Assembly (NCBI GenBank): GCA_913045935.1
Contig: CAJWSY010000010.1
Span: 1-36,921 of the forward strand
DNA: 36,921 nt
Direction of reading: 5' to 3'
From: an uncultured Chloroflexota bacterium
GTDB lineage: Bacteria; Chloroflexota; Dehalococcoidia; Lucifugimonadales; GCA-002694895
In this document: positions 4,028 through 13,264 of the stretch, piece after piece
Position numbering within the stretch: position 1 is the first letter of the stretch
How the letters are laid out: every line of letters begins with the position of its first letter
Translations under genes and position numbers: made by a program
The notes under the pieces: model-generated
What the model was told of the DNA's origin: nothing
The model's database searches: none
The model's input: the letters and a program-made list of their open reading frames with translations, nothing else

Positions 4028-6322
4028 ATGAATACAAACAATAAATTTGTTAGCAAACTTTCTGATATAGACTCTAAGTCCACATCAATTTATGGAGGCA
4101 AAGCTTCTAATTTAGGAGAATTAATAAAATCTGGAATAAACGTACCTCCCGGTTTTGCCTTAAGCAAAGATTTGTATTTTGATTTTATAAAAAATTCTAA
4201 AATTCAAAATACAATTGAAACTCTTTTAACAGATTCTGAAAAGATGGGAATTGCCGAACTTCAAAAGGTTTCAACACAAATTAAAAACTTGATTGACAAA
4301 TCTGATCTAGATGTGTCAATCATTCAACAAATTTCAGATGAATATAAAATTTTGGGTTCCCCAAGAGTAGCTGTGAGATCGTCAGCTACATCTGAAGACT
4401 CTATGGAAGCATCTTTTGCAGGTCAACAAAATACATATTTGAATATTCAGGGTCTAACTTCGTTAATGGAAGCAATCAAATCTTGTTGGGCCTCAGTTTT
4501 TGAAGCAAGAGCAATTTTCTATCGTAATAGCCAAAACTTACCACATTTTGATTCTGGAATGTCTGTTGTTATTCAAACAATGGTCCAACCTGATGTGAGT
4601 GGTGTAATGTTTACCTTAGAACCAACAACTCTGGACAATGAAAAATTAGTAATTGAAGCAGCCTTTGGTCTTGGTGAAGCAGTTGTATCAGGTTTGGTCA
4701 CACCTGATTATTATGTAATAGACAAATCATCACAAACTGTCATCCGACAAAAAAATGTACAACAAGTCTTCAAAATCGGTTTGAATGAAGAAAGTTCTGG
4801 CGATGGAATTTTCAGTAGTGATATTGAAAATCAGAATATCAACATACCATTAACTCCCGAAGAAAGTATGAAACCAAAATTAAATTTGGATGAATTAAAA
4901 AAATTAACCGAACAAGGATTGTTAATTGAGCAACATTATGATTATCCACAAGATATAGAATTTGCTGTTAAAGATGGTGAAATCTTTCTATTACAAAGTA
5001 GGCCTGTCACTAATTACTCAAGAGGAGTATTAAACACTGATCAAGTTAATTTGGATGTATCTAATGCTACGATGATTATTAAAGGTTCTGGCGCAAGTCC
5101 AGGCTTTGGTGCAGGAAAAGCAGTTGTTGTTAAAGATTTAAATGAATTGGATAAAGTAAAAGAGGGAGACATTCTTATTACTGAAATGACAACTCCCGAT
5201 TTTGTACCCATAATGAGAATAGTATCAGGGATTATCACAGATAAAGGCGGGAGAACTTGTCATGCAGCAATAGTAAGTAGAGAATTAGGAGTTCCATGTG
5301 TTGTTGGTGCTTACGACGCTAAAAGCGGCAAATCAGCCACAACAGAGATTCAATCTTCAGACAAAATCACTATAGACGGCACTAATGGTTATGTTTATGA
5401 AGGAATAATTGACATCCCTGAAAAAGAAATTGAAGAAGAATCAAATTTTAAAACTAACACTAAAATTTATGTTAATCTAGCTGACCCTATATCCGCACCT
5501 AAAGTTTCAGAAAGAAATGTTGACGGAATTGGTTTACTAAGAGCTGAATTTATTATTGCTAATATAGGCGAACATCCCAAATATGCTATACAAAATAATC
5601 AATCTGAATTATGGTCAACGAAATTAGCAGAAAACATTTCAATATTTTGTGAAAGTTTCGGAAATAGGCCTGTTGTTTACAGATTAACTGATTTTAAAAC
5701 TAATGAGTACAAAAATCTTAAAGGCGGCGAGGATTTTGAAGATGATGAAAATAATCCTATGATGGGTTATCGAGGAGCAATAAGATATATTAATGACACT
5801 GAAGTTTTCAAATTGGAAATTAATGCAATTAAAAATGTACTAAGAAAATACAATAATTTAATAATAATGGTACCCTTTGTCCGGACACCTGCTGAGTTAA
5901 GACAAGTTATGAACATTCTTAATCAAAACGATATTTCTGCAAGTTTAGGTCATAAAATTTGGATGATGGTAGAAGTGCCATCTAATGTTATTTTAATTAA
6001 TCAATTTATCAATGAAGGTATAACTGGTATTTCTATAGGATCTAATGATTTAACAGAATTAACTTTAGGAGTAGATAGAGACAATGAAAGGTTAGAAGAA
6101 TCTTTTGATGAAAGGGATCCTGCTGTTTTATGGGCAATTGAAAGAGTTATCACAGCCTCAAAGAAACAAGGGATTACATCTTCTATTTGTGGTCAAGCAC
6201 CATCATTTTTTCCAGATTTAACAGAAAAATTAGTACAATGGGGTATCACTTCTGTTTCAGTCAGCCCAGATAGTATAGATAAAACTCGTAATTTAGTTTA
6301 TAGAATTGAAAAAACTTTATAA
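4028..6322 (+). CDS. ppsA: Phosphoenolpyruvate synthase (pyruvate, water dikinase)
   Basis: 764 residues, close to E. coli PpsA (792). It makes PEP, AMP and phosphate from pyruvate and ATP, the entry to gluconeogenesis. Three domains are visible. The N-terminal ATP-grasp nucleotide-binding domain (about 15-335) has KASNLGEL, VRSSATSEDS and EAAFGLGEAVVSG, ending LLQSRPVT. The central swivelling phosphohistidine domain has GGRTCHAAIVSRELG with catalytic His412. The C-terminal PEP/pyruvate TIM barrel (about 470-760) has GIGLLRAEF, MVPFVRTPAE, MVEVPSN, ISIGSNDLTELTLGVDRD and ICGQAPS. All expected catalytic blocks are intact. It is the first gene of a tight + strand operon: its TAA overlaps the ATG of the gamma-glutamyltransferase by one base. 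A pyruvate-to-PEP step suits growth on amino acids or organic acids. Confidence 0.95.
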   Translation: MNTNNKFVSKLSDIDSKSTSIYGGKASNLGELIKSGINVPPGFALSKDLYFDFIKNSKIQNTIETLLTDSEKMGIAELQKVSTQIKNLIDKSDLDVSIIQQISDEYKILGSPRVAVRSSATSEDSMEASFAGQQNTYLNIQGLTSLMEAIKSCWASVFEARAIFYRNSQNLPHFDSGMSVVIQTMVQPDVSGVMFTLEPTTLDNEKLVIEAAFGLGEAVVSGLVTPDYYVIDKSSQTVIRQKNVQQVFKIGLNEESSGDGIFSSDIENQNINIPLTPEESMKPKLNLDELKKLTEQGLLIEQHYDYPQDIEFAVKDGEIFLLQSRPVTNYSRGVLNTDQVNLDVSNATMIIKGSGASPGFGAGKAVVVKDLNELDKVKEGDILITEMTTPDFVPIMRIVSGIITDKGGRTCHAAIVSRELGVPCVVGAYDAKSGKSATTEIQSSDKITIDGTNGYVYEGIIDIPEKEIEEESNFKTNTKIYVNLADPISAPKVSERNVDGIGLLRAEFIIANIGEHPKYAIQNNQSELWSTKLAENISIFCESFGNRPVVYRLTDFKTNEYKNLKGGEDFEDDENNPMMGYRGAIRYINDTEVFKLEINAIKNVLRKYNNLIIMVPFVRTPAELRQVMNILNQNDISASLGHKIWMMVEVPSNVILINQFINEGITGISIGSNDLTELTLGVDRDNERLEESFDERDPAVLWAIERVITASKKQGITSSICGQAPSFFPDLTEKLVQWGITSVSVSPDSIDKTRNLVYRIEKTL

Positions 6323-7950
6323 TGAATAAGGGTATAATCACTTGCCCCCAACCTATAGCTGGTGAAGTGGGGATTAAAATTTTAGAATCAGGTGGCAATG
6401 CATTTGATGCCGCTCTTGCTGCAGCTTTTTCACAATGGGTTCTAGACCCTTTTATGTGTGGTCTTGGTGGAATGGGAATAGCACAAATTTATGATAAATC
6501 TACTGAACAAGTAATTTCAATTAATTTTGCAGGCGTGGCTGGTAGTAAAGCAACAGAAGACATGTGGGCTAAAGACAAAGTGACAAGAAGTGAAATTTCT
6601 AATTTGTTTCAATTTTCAGACTTTAGAAGTGAAATTGGTTACACTTCTGTCATGACACCAACCGTTTTAGCAGCATTTGATCAAATATATAATAAATATT
6701 GTTCAATGCCATGGAACGAATTATTATCCCCTGCCATTAATATTGCAAAAAAGGGTTTGGTAGTAAATTCAAACTTAGACCAATATTTTCAAACAGGATA
6801 TGCAGGGGGAGACAAAGATAATAACCCATTACAACCTAATACATATCAAAGAATAACCGCATCTATCGGAAGTAAAAGTAAATATACCAAAACCGACGGT
6901 TCTGTATACACCTTGGGAGAGACTATTGATATGTCTGATTATGCAAATACACTGTCTTTGATTGCTGATAAAGGCGCGAAGGAATTTTATGAAGGCGAAT
7001 TATCTGAAATTATTATCAAAGATATTGCTGAAAATGGTGGTTTTGTAACATCTGAAGATTTAAAAAATTACAAACCTGATTTCGAAAAACCACTTAAAAT
7101 TAGTTATTTGGATTATGAAATAACATCACCTCCCCCTCCAAATACTGGAATGTCACTATTGCAGATGTTCAAACTAATTGAACCATTTCAAAAAGAATTA
7201 AAGGAGCATGGTTCCTACGAATACTTAAAAATACTATCAAATGCCATGTCTATATCTCACCAGGATAGATTAGATTACAATGCCGATCCAAAATTTGTAG
7301 AAATTCCTGTACAAAAATTATTAAGTGATTCTTATATTAAACAAAAAACTACAGACATAAAAAATGGAGTAATTCCAAAGTCAGGGAACACAGAACCGGG
7401 TTCAACTACTCACGTTAACGTTGTTGATACAAAAGGAAACTGGGTTGGAATCACACACACATTAGGATGGGCATCTGGGGTAGTAACACCCGGACTAGGA
7501 TTTATGTATAATAATGGTATGAATCTTGCTGATCCAAGACCTGGTATGTTAAATTCTATTTCACCAGGCAAAGCAAGAGGATCAAATATGATTCCTACTA
7601 TGGTTTTTAAAAATAATAAACCAATTAAAATATGCGGTGCCCCTGGAGGTGCTGTTATCGTAAGCGCTGTCTTCCAAGCATTATTAAATTCTATCAATTA
7701 TGATATGACAGCAACGGAATCTGTTTCTGCACCTAGAATTCACACAGAAAGTGGTAAGGTTTTTTTAGAATCGCGATTTAGATCTGATTATAAAGATATT
7801 TTATTATCAGATGGGTTTGATGTGGTTCAGCAACCTTTTCCGTTAAATCCAATGATGGCTAGAGCTCAATTAATTACTTATGATGAACTAACAGGTCAAT
7901 ATGACGGAGGAAGCGATCCTCGCGGCGGCGGAGTCGTATTCAAATCATAA
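6322..7950 (+). CDS. Gamma-glutamyltransferase family protein (GGT-1)
   Basis: 542 residues, an Ntn-hydrolase precursor expected to cleave itself. The autoprocessing/nucleophile Thr is Thr362 in GSTTHVNVVDTKGNWVGITHTLG, matching the TTHYSV start of the E. coli GGT small subunit. The following GLGFMYNNGM, ARGSNMIPTMV and ICGAPGG segments are family hallmarks of the gamma-glutamyl pocket and oxyanion region. The family cleaves or transfers gamma-glutamyl groups from glutathione and related compounds. Many genome annotations give this broad family to other amide or peptide substrates, so glutathione is not assured. It lacks the signal peptide of classical periplasmic GGT and begins directly at the first strand (MNKGIITCPQPIAGEVG), so it is probably cytoplasmic. 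It overlaps ppsA by one base, and the selenoprotein candidate begins one base after its stop. Confidence 0.9.
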   Translation: MNKGIITCPQPIAGEVGIKILESGGNAFDAALAAAFSQWVLDPFMCGLGGMGIAQIYDKSTEQVISINFAGVAGSKATEDMWAKDKVTRSEISNLFQFSDFRSEIGYTSVMTPTVLAAFDQIYNKYCSMPWNELLSPAINIAKKGLVVNSNLDQYFQTGYAGGDKDNNPLQPNTYQRITASIGSKSKYTKTDGSVYTLGETIDMSDYANTLSLIADKGAKEFYEGELSEIIIKDIAENGGFVTSEDLKNYKPDFEKPLKISYLDYEITSPPPPNTGMSLLQMFKLIEPFQKELKEHGSYEYLKILSNAMSISHQDRLDYNADPKFVEIPVQKLLSDSYIKQKTTDIKNGVIPKSGNTEPGSTTHVNVVDTKGNWVGITHTLGWASGVVTPGLGFMYNNGMNLADPRPGMLNSISPGKARGSNMIPTMVFKNNKPIKICGAPGGAVIVSAVFQALLNSINYDMTATESVSAPRIHTESGKVFLESRFRSDYKDILLSDGFDVVQQPFPLNPMMARAQLITYDELTGQYDGGSDPRGGGVVFKS

Positions 7951-7951
7951 A

Positions 7952-8437
7952 ATGAAATTTTTCCATTTAATAAATTATAATAGTTTAATTATATGCATTG
8001 GTCTAATATTCATTTCATTATTATTATTTTCATTTGTATACAGAAGTAAACTGTTGATTATTGTGACATTACTTTCATTAACCTTTGGAATACTTTTTAT
8101 TACTTATGTGAAAATACAATCAAATACTAATGATCAAAAATATATAACTGAGATAATTAAAACAAATGATCACACAGTAGTTTATTTATATAGCAATTTT
8201 TGAGCTGCTTGCGTTGCATACAAACCTCAAGTTTTGAGGTTAAAAAACAATGTTAGTAATATTCAAGTTAATTACATTGAATACGAAATAAGTAGCAATC
8301 AGGCTAAAGATTTCATTGAAATATACAAATACAAATCCGTTCCTCACATTATGCTAATAAACAAGCAAGGAAAAATCGTAAATAAATGGCAATCAATACC
8401 AGACATTAAAGAAATTAATAAATTTATATCTAAATAG
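7952..8437 (+). CDS. Predicted selenoprotein: membrane-anchored thioredoxin-fold protein with a UxxC motif (in-frame TGA read as Sec84)
   Basis: One 161-residue gene that simple ORF calling breaks at TGA 8201-8203. The two halves are in the same frame. Residues 11-29 and 33-52 are hydrophobic membrane segments. The rest is a thioredoxin-like domain: strand TVVYLYSNF, then U84-A-A-C87, then Pro92 five residues after the Cys exactly as in Trx CGPCKxxxP. It continues with the strand IQVNYIEYEI, cis-Pro131 in YKSVPHIMLINKQGKIV, and a C-terminal helix. TGA therefore replaces the codon of the nucleophilic first Cys. A hairpin with SECIS geometry follows (8223-8241). I start at ATG 7952, one base after the GGT stop; the upstream ATG at 7901 lies inside GGT. 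No clear Shine-Dalgarno is seen, so translational coupling is likely. The probable role is a membrane-tethered redox enzyme; which side faces out is ambiguous because the loop RSK and both flanks are weakly charged. The main alternative is a recently broken gene (Cys codon to TGA). No sel genes lie in this window. Confidence 0.75.
8201..8203 (+). other. In-frame TGA, predicted selenocysteine codon
   Basis: This TGA aligns with the first Cys codon of the thioredoxin CxxC motif and is followed by GCT GCT TGC (A-A-C). Coding resemblance continues without a frame change to the TAG at 8435-8437. TGA is a normal stop elsewhere in the window, for example at the ends of the SDR (24222) and flavin reductase (25016) genes. 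Confidence 0.75.
8223..8241 (+). promoter_or_regulatory. Candidate bacterial SECIS hairpin
   Basis: AACCTCAA (8223-8230) pairs perfectly with TTGAGGTT (8234-8241) around a GTT loop, giving an 8-bp stem. The loop begins with G and lies 27 nt after the TGA. Published bacterial SECIS models ask for a small stem-loop with a G in the first two loop positions, 16 to 37 nt from the UGA. The hairpin also encodes the conserved Lys-Pro-Gln segment, so it must satisfy protein and RNA constraints together. Confidence 0.65.
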
Positions 8438-11400
8438 ATTTCAAACCTGGAATGTTGCTTTTATCAACCATATCTTCAAAATCTGCCAAACCTGATTCTT
8501 GCATAGCTTTTAATTTATCCAATTGTTGGTCTACTTCATCTCCTATTTCATTAAACACACCAATTGACTGATCTGTTGGTTTGAAATCTGCACTATCAAT
8601 TACCGGGATCAAGCCTGCTAATTTAGCATTTAAAACTACTGGAAAATTCAGTCTGTCTCTAGCTCCTCTGTAGTCGCTAAATACTAAAGACTGTTCTATT
8701 GAGTTTAATTCTGAAATTAATTTTTCACCATCACTCTTGATTTTTTCATGATTACTATTATTTTCCGATCTAGATATCCATCCACGTATTTCTTCTTGGT
8801 TAATTCTTATAACTTCAACAGATGTATGGATTTCAGACAATTTAGAATTTATGTTTTGTAATAAATTGTATTGATCATCTAAATCTTTATCAGATGCACT
8901 AACTCTAGGGTCTTTAACAAGTGTTACATTTGTTTTAAGAGATGTTGTTTTATTACCTTTGGTTAAAATTAATTCGATGTCATAATCTCCAGGCGTAGCC
9001 ATTGGGCCAGAGACTCCAGCCGTTAATTGCTCTCCTTCAAGTTTATATGGATCATTTGAATACATATCCCATATAAATTCATTGAATCCTTTATTGATTT
9101 TTAATTCAGACTTCTTTTTACCAGGGCCTTTAACTAAAGGTTTTTCTTCTTTTGAATTATCTTCAGTTGATAAAGACCTAATAGTATTTCCATTTGCATC
9201 AGTAATAATCATTTCTGCATTTTCAAAATCATCATTAAGATAAAATACTATAGGAACTCCCATTGGAGGATTTTCACCAGAATCTAAATACTCTGTATGA
9301 ACAATTCCATTAGCGTCTTTTGTTTTTTCAATCAAAACTGGGGTACCAAGAGAAGCCATGTAAGCTTTTGCGTTATCAGGTCCTCCTCCAAATAATCTAA
9401 ATCCGAAAGGTGGTAATATTCTGTATGTTGGGGCAGGTTTAAATATTACGTTATCGTCTTCAGTATTTGAATTGAGTTGTGATATTACTGTTATATCATC
9501 TAATATCCAAAAAGCACGGCCATGAGTTGCCACAACCATATTATTATCTTTAATATCTATGTCATAAACTGGTACAACAGGAAATGTTGAAGATTCTAAT
9601 TTGGTCCAATTTGAACCATCATCAAATGAAACAAACAGTCCTGTCTCTGTTCCTACATAAAGAACATTAGGATCATTTTTGTCCACTCTGATTACTCTTG
9701 TGATTTCATGTTTAGGGAAAGAATCATCAATTCTTGTCCATGATTTTCCATTATCTGTTGTTTTATAAATAATTGGAGAATAATCATCAAGCATATTTTT
9801 TGTTGCAACAACGTATGCAGTTGATTTGTCATGTGGTGACAATTCTATAGTGTGGATTCTAGCCCATTTTGGGAAATCTTTAGGAGTTACTTCTGTCCAA
9901 CTTTTTTCGTTAGAATCTGCTCCGTCAGTTGAAATGTGGATCTTGCCATCATCACTTCCAGCCCACATTAAGCCTTTTACATACGGAGATTCGATGAAAG
10001 AGTATATTGTGCAATAGGTTTCAGCAGCTGATGTATCTTTTGTAATCGGACCTCCTGATACTTCTTGTTTAGATTTATCATCTGTTGTTAAATCTCCACT
10101 AATTTCTGTCCAAGATTGTCCTTCATTAGTTGATTTGAAAACCTTGTTTCCTGCAACATACAAGGTTTTATCATCATGAGGAGAAAATTGTATAGGGAAA
10201 GTCCATTGGAACCTATACTTCATTTGATCTGCGCCTTTACCTGTATTCATTACAGGCCAAACTGTGACTATTCTTACCTGCCCTGTTTCATGATCATATC
10301 TTAAAAGGTTACCTCCACCTCCTGGTGAACTACCTATTGCACCAGAATATACAATGTTTGGATTTTTGGGATCTGTAACAATATAACCACTTTCTGATGT
10401 ACCTGTAACATAGGCATCAGACCACGTAATTGCACCTTTTTCTGTTCTGTAGGGCACACTGATTGCAGAGTTGTCTTGTTGCGTACCATAAACTCTATAA
10501 GGAAATTGGTTGTCAGTATGAACATGATAAAATTGAGCTGTTTTTTGGTTATATATAGTAGACCAAGTGTCTCCTCCATTCAAAGAGACATTAGCGCCAC
10601 CGTCATTACCTTGAATTAATCTATTACTATCATTTGGATCTATCCATATATCATGGTTGTCACCGTGGGGTGTAGTTACTAAATCGAAATTTTTACCACC
10701 GTCAGTAGATTTGTAGCAACTATAATTCATTATCCATACAGTATTTTCGTCAGATGGATCAGATATGATGTGCTGGTAATACCAAGGTCTGCCTTGTAAA
10801 TCTTGATTATCTGATACTAATTCCCAATTTTCTCCGTAATCTTCTGTTCTGTAAACTCCTGTATCGATCTCTGATTCAATTGTAGCCCACATTCTTCCTT
10901 CTTTAGCAGGAGATATAGTGACTCCCATTCTGCCTTTCAACCCGCCTGGTAACCCAGGTTTGGTAGTTATATTTTCCCAATTTTCACCAGCATCAAAAGA
11001 AATATAAATACCTGAATCAGGACCTCCGCTTTCTAAATTCCAGAAAGTTCTTTTAGCTTGCCAAATAGCAGCAATTAAAATTTTAGGATTGCCAGTGTCC
11101 ATTGCCAAATCTGCAACACCGGCTTTATCACTTACAAATAAAACATTTTCCCATGTCTCTCCGCCGTCTGTCGATTTATACACTCCTCTTTCTTTGTTTG
11201 AACCAAAGGCATGGCCCAGGGCTCCTACATAGACTGTATCAGGATCAGTTGGATCTATTCTTATTCTTGATATATGCATTGTTTTTGATAAACCTACATG
11301 TTTCCATGTTCTTCCTGCGTCAGTTGATTTATATACTCCATCTCCTGGTGAAACGTTTCCACGTATTTGCGACTCCCCTGTTCCTGCATATATTACATTA

Positions 11401-11642
11401 GGATCTGAGTCTGCTATTGCTAATGCGCCAATAGAAGATGTGTTTAAAAAACCGTCAGTTATATTTTTCCATGTTGTTCCAGCATCATCTGTTTTCCATA
11501 CACCTCCTGCACAAGCTCCAAAATAATATTCATTAATGTTAGTTGGATGACCTGCTACTGCAACAACTCTTCCTCCTCGAGGAGGGCCAATATTTCTCCA
11601 TTTTATATTATTTAATACATCATTTTTCATTTTTGCTTTCAT
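8430..11642 (-). CDS. Large Asp-box (BNR) beta-propeller protein, VPS10/sortilin- and GH74-like
   Basis: 1070 residues. About ten Asp-box repeats (S-x-D-x-G-x-x-W pattern) occur through the first two thirds, for example YKSTDAGRTWKHV, YKSTDGGETWENV, YISFDAGENWENI, YRTEDYGENWELV, YKTTDNGKSWTRI and FVSFDDGSNWTKL. These form one or two beta-propellers of the kind seen in sortilin, GH74 xyloglucanases and photosynthesis-assembly proteins. After about residue 700 there is a beta-rich segment with FNEFIWDMYSNDPYKLEG and ATPGDYDIELIL, then a C-terminal helical region (about 900-1050). Relatives are usually annotated as glycosyl hydrolases, but no catalytic acid can be assigned, so a binding or scaffold role is equally possible. 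GGAG sits 6 nt before the ATG. No signal peptide is visible, which is unusual for this family. It is last in a minus-strand operon, 20 nt after GGT-2, and its stop overlaps the selenoprotein gene. Confidence 0.85.
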   Translation of the reverse strand: MKAKMKNDVLNNIKWRNIGPPRGGRVVAVAGHPTNINEYYFGACAGGVWKTDDAGTTWKNITDGFLNTSSIGALAIADSDPNVIYAGTGESQIRGNVSPGDGVYKSTDAGRTWKHVGLSKTMHISRIRIDPTDPDTVYVGALGHAFGSNKERGVYKSTDGGETWENVLFVSDKAGVADLAMDTGNPKILIAAIWQAKRTFWNLESGGPDSGIYISFDAGENWENITTKPGLPGGLKGRMGVTISPAKEGRMWATIESEIDTGVYRTEDYGENWELVSDNQDLQGRPWYYQHIISDPSDENTVWIMNYSCYKSTDGGKNFDLVTTPHGDNHDIWIDPNDSNRLIQGNDGGANVSLNGGDTWSTIYNQKTAQFYHVHTDNQFPYRVYGTQQDNSAISVPYRTEKGAITWSDAYVTGTSESGYIVTDPKNPNIVYSGAIGSSPGGGGNLLRYDHETGQVRIVTVWPVMNTGKGADQMKYRFQWTFPIQFSPHDDKTLYVAGNKVFKSTNEGQSWTEISGDLTTDDKSKQEVSGGPITKDTSAAETYCTIYSFIESPYVKGLMWAGSDDGKIHISTDGADSNEKSWTEVTPKDFPKWARIHTIELSPHDKSTAYVVATKNMLDDYSPIIYKTTDNGKSWTRIDDSFPKHEITRVIRVDKNDPNVLYVGTETGLFVSFDDGSNWTKLESSTFPVVPVYDIDIKDNNMVVATHGRAFWILDDITVISQLNSNTEDDNVIFKPAPTYRILPPFGFRLFGGGPDNAKAYMASLGTPVLIEKTKDANGIVHTEYLDSGENPPMGVPIVFYLNDDFENAEMIITDANGNTIRSLSTEDNSKEEKPLVKGPGKKKSELKINKGFNEFIWDMYSNDPYKLEGEQLTAGVSGPMATPGDYDIELILTKGNKTTSLKTNVTLVKDPRVSASDKDLDDQYNLLQNINSKLSEIHTSVEVIRINQEEIRGWISRSENNSNHEKIKSDGEKLISELNSIEQSLVFSDYRGARDRLNFPVVLNAKLAGLIPVIDSADFKPTDQSIGVFNEIGDEVDQQLDKLKAMQESGLADFEDMVDKSNIPGLKSI

Positions 11643-11662: not shown

Positions 11663-13264
11663 TTAGATTCCGATTGCTTGGCCGTCTTTACGTGGTTCGG
11701 AACCACCTATAAATATATTACCATTTACTTGAATTATTTGACCACCTCCAAAATTTGGAGTGGGGTCACTAACAATGATATTATGACCAAAATTTTTTAA
11801 TTGTTCTATTAATTCATTAGGAAATGTTGATTCAATTAACACCGTGTCTTTTGTAATATCTTTTTCATCGTCATCCCATGGTGTAACACTAAATCTTGGG
11901 TAGTCCAATGCCTCTTGTGGTGACATTTTTTTATCAATCAAATTTGATAAAACCTGAAAATGACCTTGCGCTTGTTGCATTCCTCCCATAACTCCGTAGC
12001 AGTATTCTAGGTTGTCATCTTTTGTTACCATGCCAGGTATCAGGGTGTGAAAAGGCCTTTTGTTAGGTTCTAAATAATTTGGATGATTTTTATCTAGACT
12101 AAAACTAGAACCTCTGTTTTGCAAAAATATACCGGTTTCTGGCACAACTATACCTGAGCCAAAACCTTGATACAAACTATTTATAAATGAACATCCGTTT
12201 CCTTCTTCATCAACAACAGTTATGTAAACTGTATTACTTGTGTCAATTTTAATTGTAGGTTCGTATTGATTTGCTTTATTGGGTTTTATCAATTTTCTTT
12301 TGGATTCTGCATAAGATTTAGATAGCAGTTTAGGTAAGACTTCCTTTGAAATTTCAAAATCTGTGATATTAAATAGTCCATCACTAAAAGCAGCTTTTAC
12401 AGCTTCTATTTTAAGATGAATTTCATCTTTAATATTTTTGGTATCATTACTGTTAAAACCCTCATAAATATTTAATGACATTAATACATTTAAACCTTGG
12501 GTATTTGGAGGACATTGCCATACAGTATACCCTTTATAATCAGTATTTATTGGGTCCACCCAGTCAGCTTTATGATTTGATATATCTTTTTCATCAATCC
12601 AACCTCCAAGTGATTTTATATGTTTTGAAATTTTAGATGCAATTTCACCATTGTAAAATGCATCTGGCCCGTCTGTCATAATATTTTTCAATGAGTTAGC
12701 AAGATAAGGAAGTGTTTTAAGTTCACCAAATTTAGGTGCGTTTGGTGTTAAGTATTCAGGAAATTTTGAATCTTCTTGAATTTTATTAACAGAGCCATTC
12801 CATCCTTCTGCAATAATTTCGCTTACGGGAAATCCATCTTTTGCATAAATATAAGCAGGTTCAATAACATCAGACAAATTTAAATTGCCAAATTTGTTAA
12901 CTATTGCTTCCCATCCTCTTACTGCACCTGGAACAGAGACTGAAAAAGGTGAAGTTGCTGGTATGGATTTATAGCCTTTATTTATTAATTCTTCAGGGTC
13001 TGCTTTAGAAGACGATCTTCCGCTAGAATTTAATGCATATACTTTTTTCTCACTAGCTTTATAATACAGAGCAAAAACATCACCACCAATACCCGTAGAC
13101 ATTGGTTCAACTACATTTAATACTGCAGCGGTTGCAACAGCAGCATCTACCGCATTACCGCCATTTTTAAGTATTTGAATCCCTGCTTGTGCAGCTAAAG
13201 GTTGACTTGTAGCTACTATCCCTTTATTTGACAAAACATTAGATCTTCTTGAATTGAATTTCAT
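11663..13264 (-). CDS. Gamma-glutamyltransferase family protein (GGT-2, YwrD-like)
   Basis: 533 residues. The N-terminal GIVATSQPLAAQAGIQILKNGGNAVDAAVATAAVLNVVEPMSTGIGGD is the classic GGT large-subunit start. The predicted processing Thr is Thr345 in SNTVYITVVDEEGNGCSFINSLYQGFGSGIV, followed by TGIFLQNRGSSFSLD, KRPFHTLIPGM and GVMGGMQQAQGHFQVLSNLID. It differs from GGT-1 (TVY instead of TTH at the cleavage site) and belongs to the branch typified by YwrD. It lacks a signal peptide, so it is likely intracellular. A strong Shine-Dalgarno (AAAGGAG, 5 nt before ATG) is present. It lies 9 nt after the pyroglutamyl peptidase gene; the pairing suggests removal of N-terminal gamma-glutamyl and pyroglutamyl groups from peptides. 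The exact substrate is unknown. Confidence 0.9.
   Translation of the reverse strand: MKFNSRRSNVLSNKGIVATSQPLAAQAGIQILKNGGNAVDAAVATAAVLNVVEPMSTGIGGDVFALYYKASEKKVYALNSSGRSSSKADPEELINKGYKSIPATSPFSVSVPGAVRGWEAIVNKFGNLNLSDVIEPAYIYAKDGFPVSEIIAEGWNGSVNKIQEDSKFPEYLTPNAPKFGELKTLPYLANSLKNIMTDGPDAFYNGEIASKISKHIKSLGGWIDEKDISNHKADWVDPINTDYKGYTVWQCPPNTQGLNVLMSLNIYEGFNSNDTKNIKDEIHLKIEAVKAAFSDGLFNITDFEISKEVLPKLLSKSYAESKRKLIKPNKANQYEPTIKIDTSNTVYITVVDEEGNGCSFINSLYQGFGSGIVVPETGIFLQNRGSSFSLDKNHPNYLEPNKRPFHTLIPGMVTKDDNLEYCYGVMGGMQQAQGHFQVLSNLIDKKMSPQEALDYPRFSVTPWDDDEKDITKDTVLIESTFPNELIEQLKNFGHNIIVSDPTPNFGGGQIIQVNGNIFIGGSEPRKDGQAIGI

Follow-up and report, generated by a model that had tools for sequence, protein, structure and literature searches.

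The question raised by this locus is whether two adjacent open reading frames, parted by a single TGA codon, are one selenoprotein gene, and what kind of protein such a gene would encode. They lie in a 36,921-nucleotide stretch of DNA (contig CAJWSY010000010.1 of an uncultured Chloroflexota bacterium), which was analysed as a whole and is called here the window. A sequence-only reading of this DNA had proposed a selenoprotein with a U-A-A-C thioredoxin active site and was largely right, as homologues, the SECIS element and the sel genes agree with it. The reading preferred here, with a probability of about 0.85, is that the locus encodes a SECIS-directed selenocysteine (Sec) thioredoxin tethered by two helices, with its redox domain most likely outside.

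One frame, one TGA and a thioredoxin domain

The frame runs for 161 codons on the plus strand (7952-8434) up to a TAG stop (8435-8437), and its sole interruption is the TGA at 8201-8203, which confirms that the two ORFs share a frame and are separated by this codon only. The features of the locus are as follows.

4028..6322, plus strand: PEP synthase/dikinase-like gene, first gene of the putative operon (ppsA in the sequence-only reading, from which the name is taken)
6322..7950, plus strand: gamma-glutamyltransferase-like gene, upstream in the same putative operon (named from the appearance of its sequence and from the sequence-only reading)
7952..8437, plus strand: gene for the 161-residue membrane thioredoxin with TGA as Sec; same start in homologues of three congeners (L003/L076, L077, L078)
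7982..8038, plus strand: first hydrophobic helix, at residues 11-29 (19 residues with a Kyte-Doolittle mean of 2.83)
8054..8110, plus strand: second hydrophobic helix, at residues 35-53, preceded by the positive loop YRSKL (Kyte-Doolittle mean 2.44)
8123..8431, plus strand: thioredoxin domain, residues 58-160 (match to PF00085 with E=3.5e-8, exceeding the gathering score)
8201..8203, plus strand: Sec codon UGA for U84, which opens the UAAC redox motif (U in 31/42 and C in 11/42 family members)
8210..8212, plus strand: resolving cysteine C87, invariant in alignment A2
8223..8241, plus strand: SECIS apical hairpin, stem 8223-8230/8234-8241 and loop GUU 8231-8233 (from covariation, a synonymous control and published bacterial constraints)
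8342..8344, plus strand: cis-Pro loop residue P131 (SVPHIML), invariant in alignment A2

Annotation with the standard code would split each Sec gene of this family at its TGA, here into two meaningless fragments. When the 161-residue protein is joined, with Cys put at position 84, it scores 33.8 bits against PF00085 (gathering threshold 23.5); in the HMMER alignment U84 falls opposite the first Cys of CGPC, and SVP131 opposite the SVP of thioredoxins. This is the register in which the TGA had been taken for the leading Cys of a CxxC motif of thioredoxin type, giving the active site U84-A-A-C87 with Pro92 and the cis-Pro P131 in SVPHIML. In the first 17 members aligned S81, U/C84, C87 and P131 are invariant; Pro92 (+5 from the second Cys) is present here and is replaced in some Cys forms.

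The gene starts 1 nt past the stop of the gamma-glutamyltransferase-like gene, and its 3' end overlaps with that of a convergent gene (8430-11642). It had been described as a protein of a ppsA-GGT operon, which, as a putative operon, holds for the window and within the genus, but the family is not confined to that setting: this neighbourhood is kept only within the genus, with other neighbours beyond it, and therefore it does not explain the function and was rejected as a functional clue. The window carries two gamma-glutamyltransferase-like paralogues (6322-7950 and 11663-13264), and in one distant Chloroflexota genome (L065) a gamma-glutamyltransferase-like gene lies downstream of the family member, possibly by coincidence.

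A scan of public genomes returned one close relative (L003, in a Chloroflexota metagenome genome). It is 50-51% identical, shares its neighbours with the window gene and has TGA at the same codon. Of the other four genomes in the genus, three carry the gene, in each case with TGA. Wider members were collected by profile searches of the class and then of the phylum Chloroflexota, for which 400 genomes were sampled; full-length members, mostly Sec forms, occur in more than 40 of them (most of the 323 phylum matches cover the thioredoxin domain only and resemble ordinary thioredoxins, and these were left out of the count). The 42 distinct members extracted have TGA (31) or TGC/TGT (11) at the one codon; all contain the thioredoxin domain, and nearly all the two N-terminal hydrophobic helices. 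Position 84 is thus kept as U or C and the sequence beyond it is conserved, so that the attempt to refute the selenoprotein reading on this ground failed. On a tree built without the U/C site the label switches at least three times on well-supported branches, and eight times by parsimony, indicating that Sec and Cys were exchanged repeatedly. No match was found in plasmids (searched with the protein) or in phages (searched with the DNA). Near the UAGC member of L075, in the segment from 2210, there is a second copy with TGA but with U-A-R-S in place of the motif and hence no second Cys, perhaps a diverged or UxxS-type form.

The genome is a draft metagenome and one base separates TGA from the Cys codons, so a pseudogene, or a sequencing or assembly error that turned TGC or TGT into TGA, could produce such an interruption. 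However, 31 distinct members, spread over many families, share a TGA at this codon, and it is followed by open frames and by the covarying hairpins described below; a recurrence of this kind speaks against a read error, and any such explanation is extremely improbable.

SECIS hairpin and proposed decoding of the UGA

The perfect 8-bp hairpin with a G-first loop noticed in the sequence-only reading was recovered with the same spacing, beginning 20 nt past the TGA with its loop 27 nt from it, and has a local energy of -8.5 kcal/mol. Published rules for bacterial SECIS elements call for a loop of 3-9 nt, a stem of 4-16 bp, a G at loop position 1 or 2, a distance of 16-37 nt from the UGA and an energy of at most -7.5 kcal/mol (PMC13188914), and the hairpin at 8223-8241 lies within all of them (3-nt loop, G first, 8 bp, 27 nt, -8.5 kcal/mol). 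Taken alone, the fold of this one sequence is weak as evidence and only moderately unusual, and its score varies with the stretch that is folded (for 60 nt z=-3.0 against dinucleotide shuffles, with 0/200 as good, and for a shorter stretch of 53 nt z=-0.6), so it is the comparative evidence that decides.

Synonymous recoding of this gene with its protein fixed gives the eight pairs in just 0.2% of draws. All TGA members have the hairpin at the corresponding position, with covariation on five of its eight pairs. In a gap-free alignment of 30 Sec members 87.5% of the cells are paired, a value that falls to 45% or less when the partners are slid by one column, and two-sided changes number 35 cells against 9.7 +/- 2.8 in shuffles; a subset of 11 sequences gave a similar covariation result. 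With all proteins fixed, 216 pairs are observed in total against 162 +/- 5 expected (2000 synonymous draws, maximum 179). Of the eight pairs, 6.97 are kept in Sec forms against 3.82 in Cys forms (p=1.9e-7, kinship ignored); because the compared sequences are related, neither this p value nor the shuffle counts are strict probabilities. Cys members have no clear excess of pairing over shuffles at the position of the hairpin, and one small family displays both repeated exchange of Sec and Cys and retention of the SECIS hairpin by its Sec forms only. The loop nucleotide G31 was discounted as independent evidence, since it falls within a commonly conserved Val codon and is also G in 7 of the 11 Cys forms. 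Comparison of the region with Rfam yielded no credible match to a family.

The machinery for decoding is encoded in the same genome, which is 76% complete: a search for the sel genes recovered selB (277.6 bits, cut-off 242), selA (495 bits), selD (309 bits) and a tRNA-Sec with a UCA anticodon, all over their cut-offs. Its selD (L023, C7:3561-4490) has an in-frame TGA in GGUGSK and is thus itself a predicted selenoprotein gene, and the tRNA-Sec adjoins a gene for a canonical CGPC thioredoxin (C3:4883-4976 and 5017-5346; L008, L083). Every Sec-form genome tested has selB above the cut-off, and the two of 44 genomes that lack it (G014, G050) are both Cys-form; since selB also occurs in most Cys-form genomes, this co-occurrence is consistent with Sec decoding and not strongly discriminating.

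A frame that stays open past its TGA would also be expected if the codon were read as another amino acid (for example Trp), through an altered code or plain readthrough. Yet normal genes in the window stop at TGA (2 of the 25 checked), from which it follows that the code is unchanged, those homologues that lack the TGA carry Cys in its place, and a SECIS-type hairpin kept only in the TGA members coexists with tRNA-Sec and selA, selB and selD; the chance that such a reading is correct is minimal. Selenocysteine is thus the preferred assignment, and SelB and tRNA-Sec would decode the UGA at 8201-8203 under the direction of the hairpin at 8223-8241.

Predicted membrane anchor, orientation and electron supply

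The product would be a thiol/selenol oxidoreductase of thioredoxin fold with a U-x-x-C site, anchored by a two-helix membrane hairpin. An AlphaFold2 model made with two sequences has a helix at residues 9-30, at low overall confidence (pLDDT 58.8). In 40 members the loop between the helices contains 86 K/R residues and the N-terminal tail 16, so that by the positive-inside rule both ends of the protein, including the thioredoxin domain, would be outside; this charge rule makes the outer side of the cytoplasmic membrane the most likely location of the domain.

In two genomes (G385, L028/L045, and G147, L030/L044) the gene for a membrane UIGC thioredoxin is directly followed by a paralogous UIGC gene with a lipobox-like sequence. 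These paralogues look like lipoproteins and would therefore be exported. Each of the two genomes thus carries two predicted selenoproteins in tandem. The window's own genome contains a second Sec thioredoxin-like protein as well, an apparent lipoprotein (LFLAC) with a UATC motif on contig C1 (L002:1441-1995, minus strand), and three congeners have counterparts with UATC or UAEC (L079, L084, L085); some copies of these genes show a hairpin downstream.

Transmembrane donors of the DsbD/CcdA type were not found in the own genome or in four congeners (drafts, 65-89% complete), and VKOR was not found in the own draft genome; most of the more distant genomes do have DsbD/CcdA-type proteins. An outward-facing reductase would accordingly be left in this genus with no obvious electron supply, and for this reason some probability stays with a cytoplasmic orientation, in which the same Sec thioredoxin would be reduced directly by thioredoxin reductase and the helices would merely anchor it. 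Positive residues right after the second helix in some members also point that way. Against it stand the inter-helix loop, far more positive than the N-terminus, and the exported appearance of the adjacent paralogues in G147 and G385, and on balance a cytoplasmic redox domain is unlikely.

Computation shows the gene structure, the exchange of Sec and Cys, the conservation of the SECIS hairpin and the presence of the decoding machinery. For the preferred outward-facing thioredoxin, we infer the side of the membrane, the direction of the reaction, the substrate and the donor. The Sec selenolate would attack disulfides or oxidised thiols of substrates outside the membrane, C87 would resolve the intermediate, and a donor would re-reduce the thioredoxin. 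A broader and rather doubtful proposal is that the membrane-hairpin Sec thioredoxin and its sister Sec lipoprotein belong to an unrecognised phylum-wide family that forms a surface thiol/selenol relay, working in the window's genus without a DsbD/CcdA donor. The family as such points to a redox chemistry based on selenium on the surface of cells from a largely uncultured group of bacteria.

Relation to known thioredoxins and selenoproteins

Thioredoxins of the TxlA/HCF164 and slr1796 types combine a membrane anchor with a thioredoxin domain, and in this they are like the window protein. Its match to NF038096 is weak (E=0.0045), at 16.5 bits against a cut-off of 140. TsoB, a rhodanese/DsbD fusion-like selenoprotein (NF045694), has a model of 572 positions of which 428-554 weakly match window residues 26-147 (E=7.3e-5); the window protein lacks the rest and scores 21 bits, below the cut-off of 805. 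It reaches the cut-off of no NCBIfam model, and no NCBIfam or Pfam model dedicated to the two-helix subfamily was found, so that the family is unnamed in the library models searched, though spread across Chloroflexota.

The form had been called undescribed-looking. This stands insofar as neither a family model nor an entry for the two-helix membrane form was found, the latter in the portions available of a 2022 review and a 2026 inventory; it has to be qualified because the protein is a variant of the known UxxC thioredoxins and may overlap with a class named earlier. In the Global Ocean Sampling (GOS) marine survey of 2008, 'Trx-like 3' is described as a UxxC protein with a weak match to cd02950, represented by a mostly marine set of 212 Sec and 183 Cys sequences (PMC2398784). 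Compared by description only, the likeness lies in the UxxC motif, the weak thioredoxin match and the occurrence of both Sec and Cys forms, and the two-helix family may include members within that class. That the two are one and the same, in which case only the membrane architecture and the phylum distribution would be new, is an appreciable prospect short of even odds, and concerns novelty and not mechanism. The shared motif, weak domain match, mixed Sec/Cys composition and marine bias favour it, but the main-text passages of the survey on this class give neither architecture nor host and describe no helices, the paper names no Chloroflexi (PMC2398784), and the available part of the 2026 inventory has no entry under that name or domain.

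A further close counterpart is the Sec-containing thioredoxin (PF00085, UxxC), listed as an experimentally verified selenoprotein (PMC13188914). As this listing bears out, UxxC thioredoxin-like selenoproteins were already known, and the window protein shares with it the Pfam family and U at the first redox position. It differs in its two N-terminal hydrophobic helices and in its score of 26.1 bits with the canonical thioredoxin model of NCBIfam (TIGR01068), below the equivalog cut-off of 96.8. The family thus adds a membrane-anchored branch to the selenothioredoxins.
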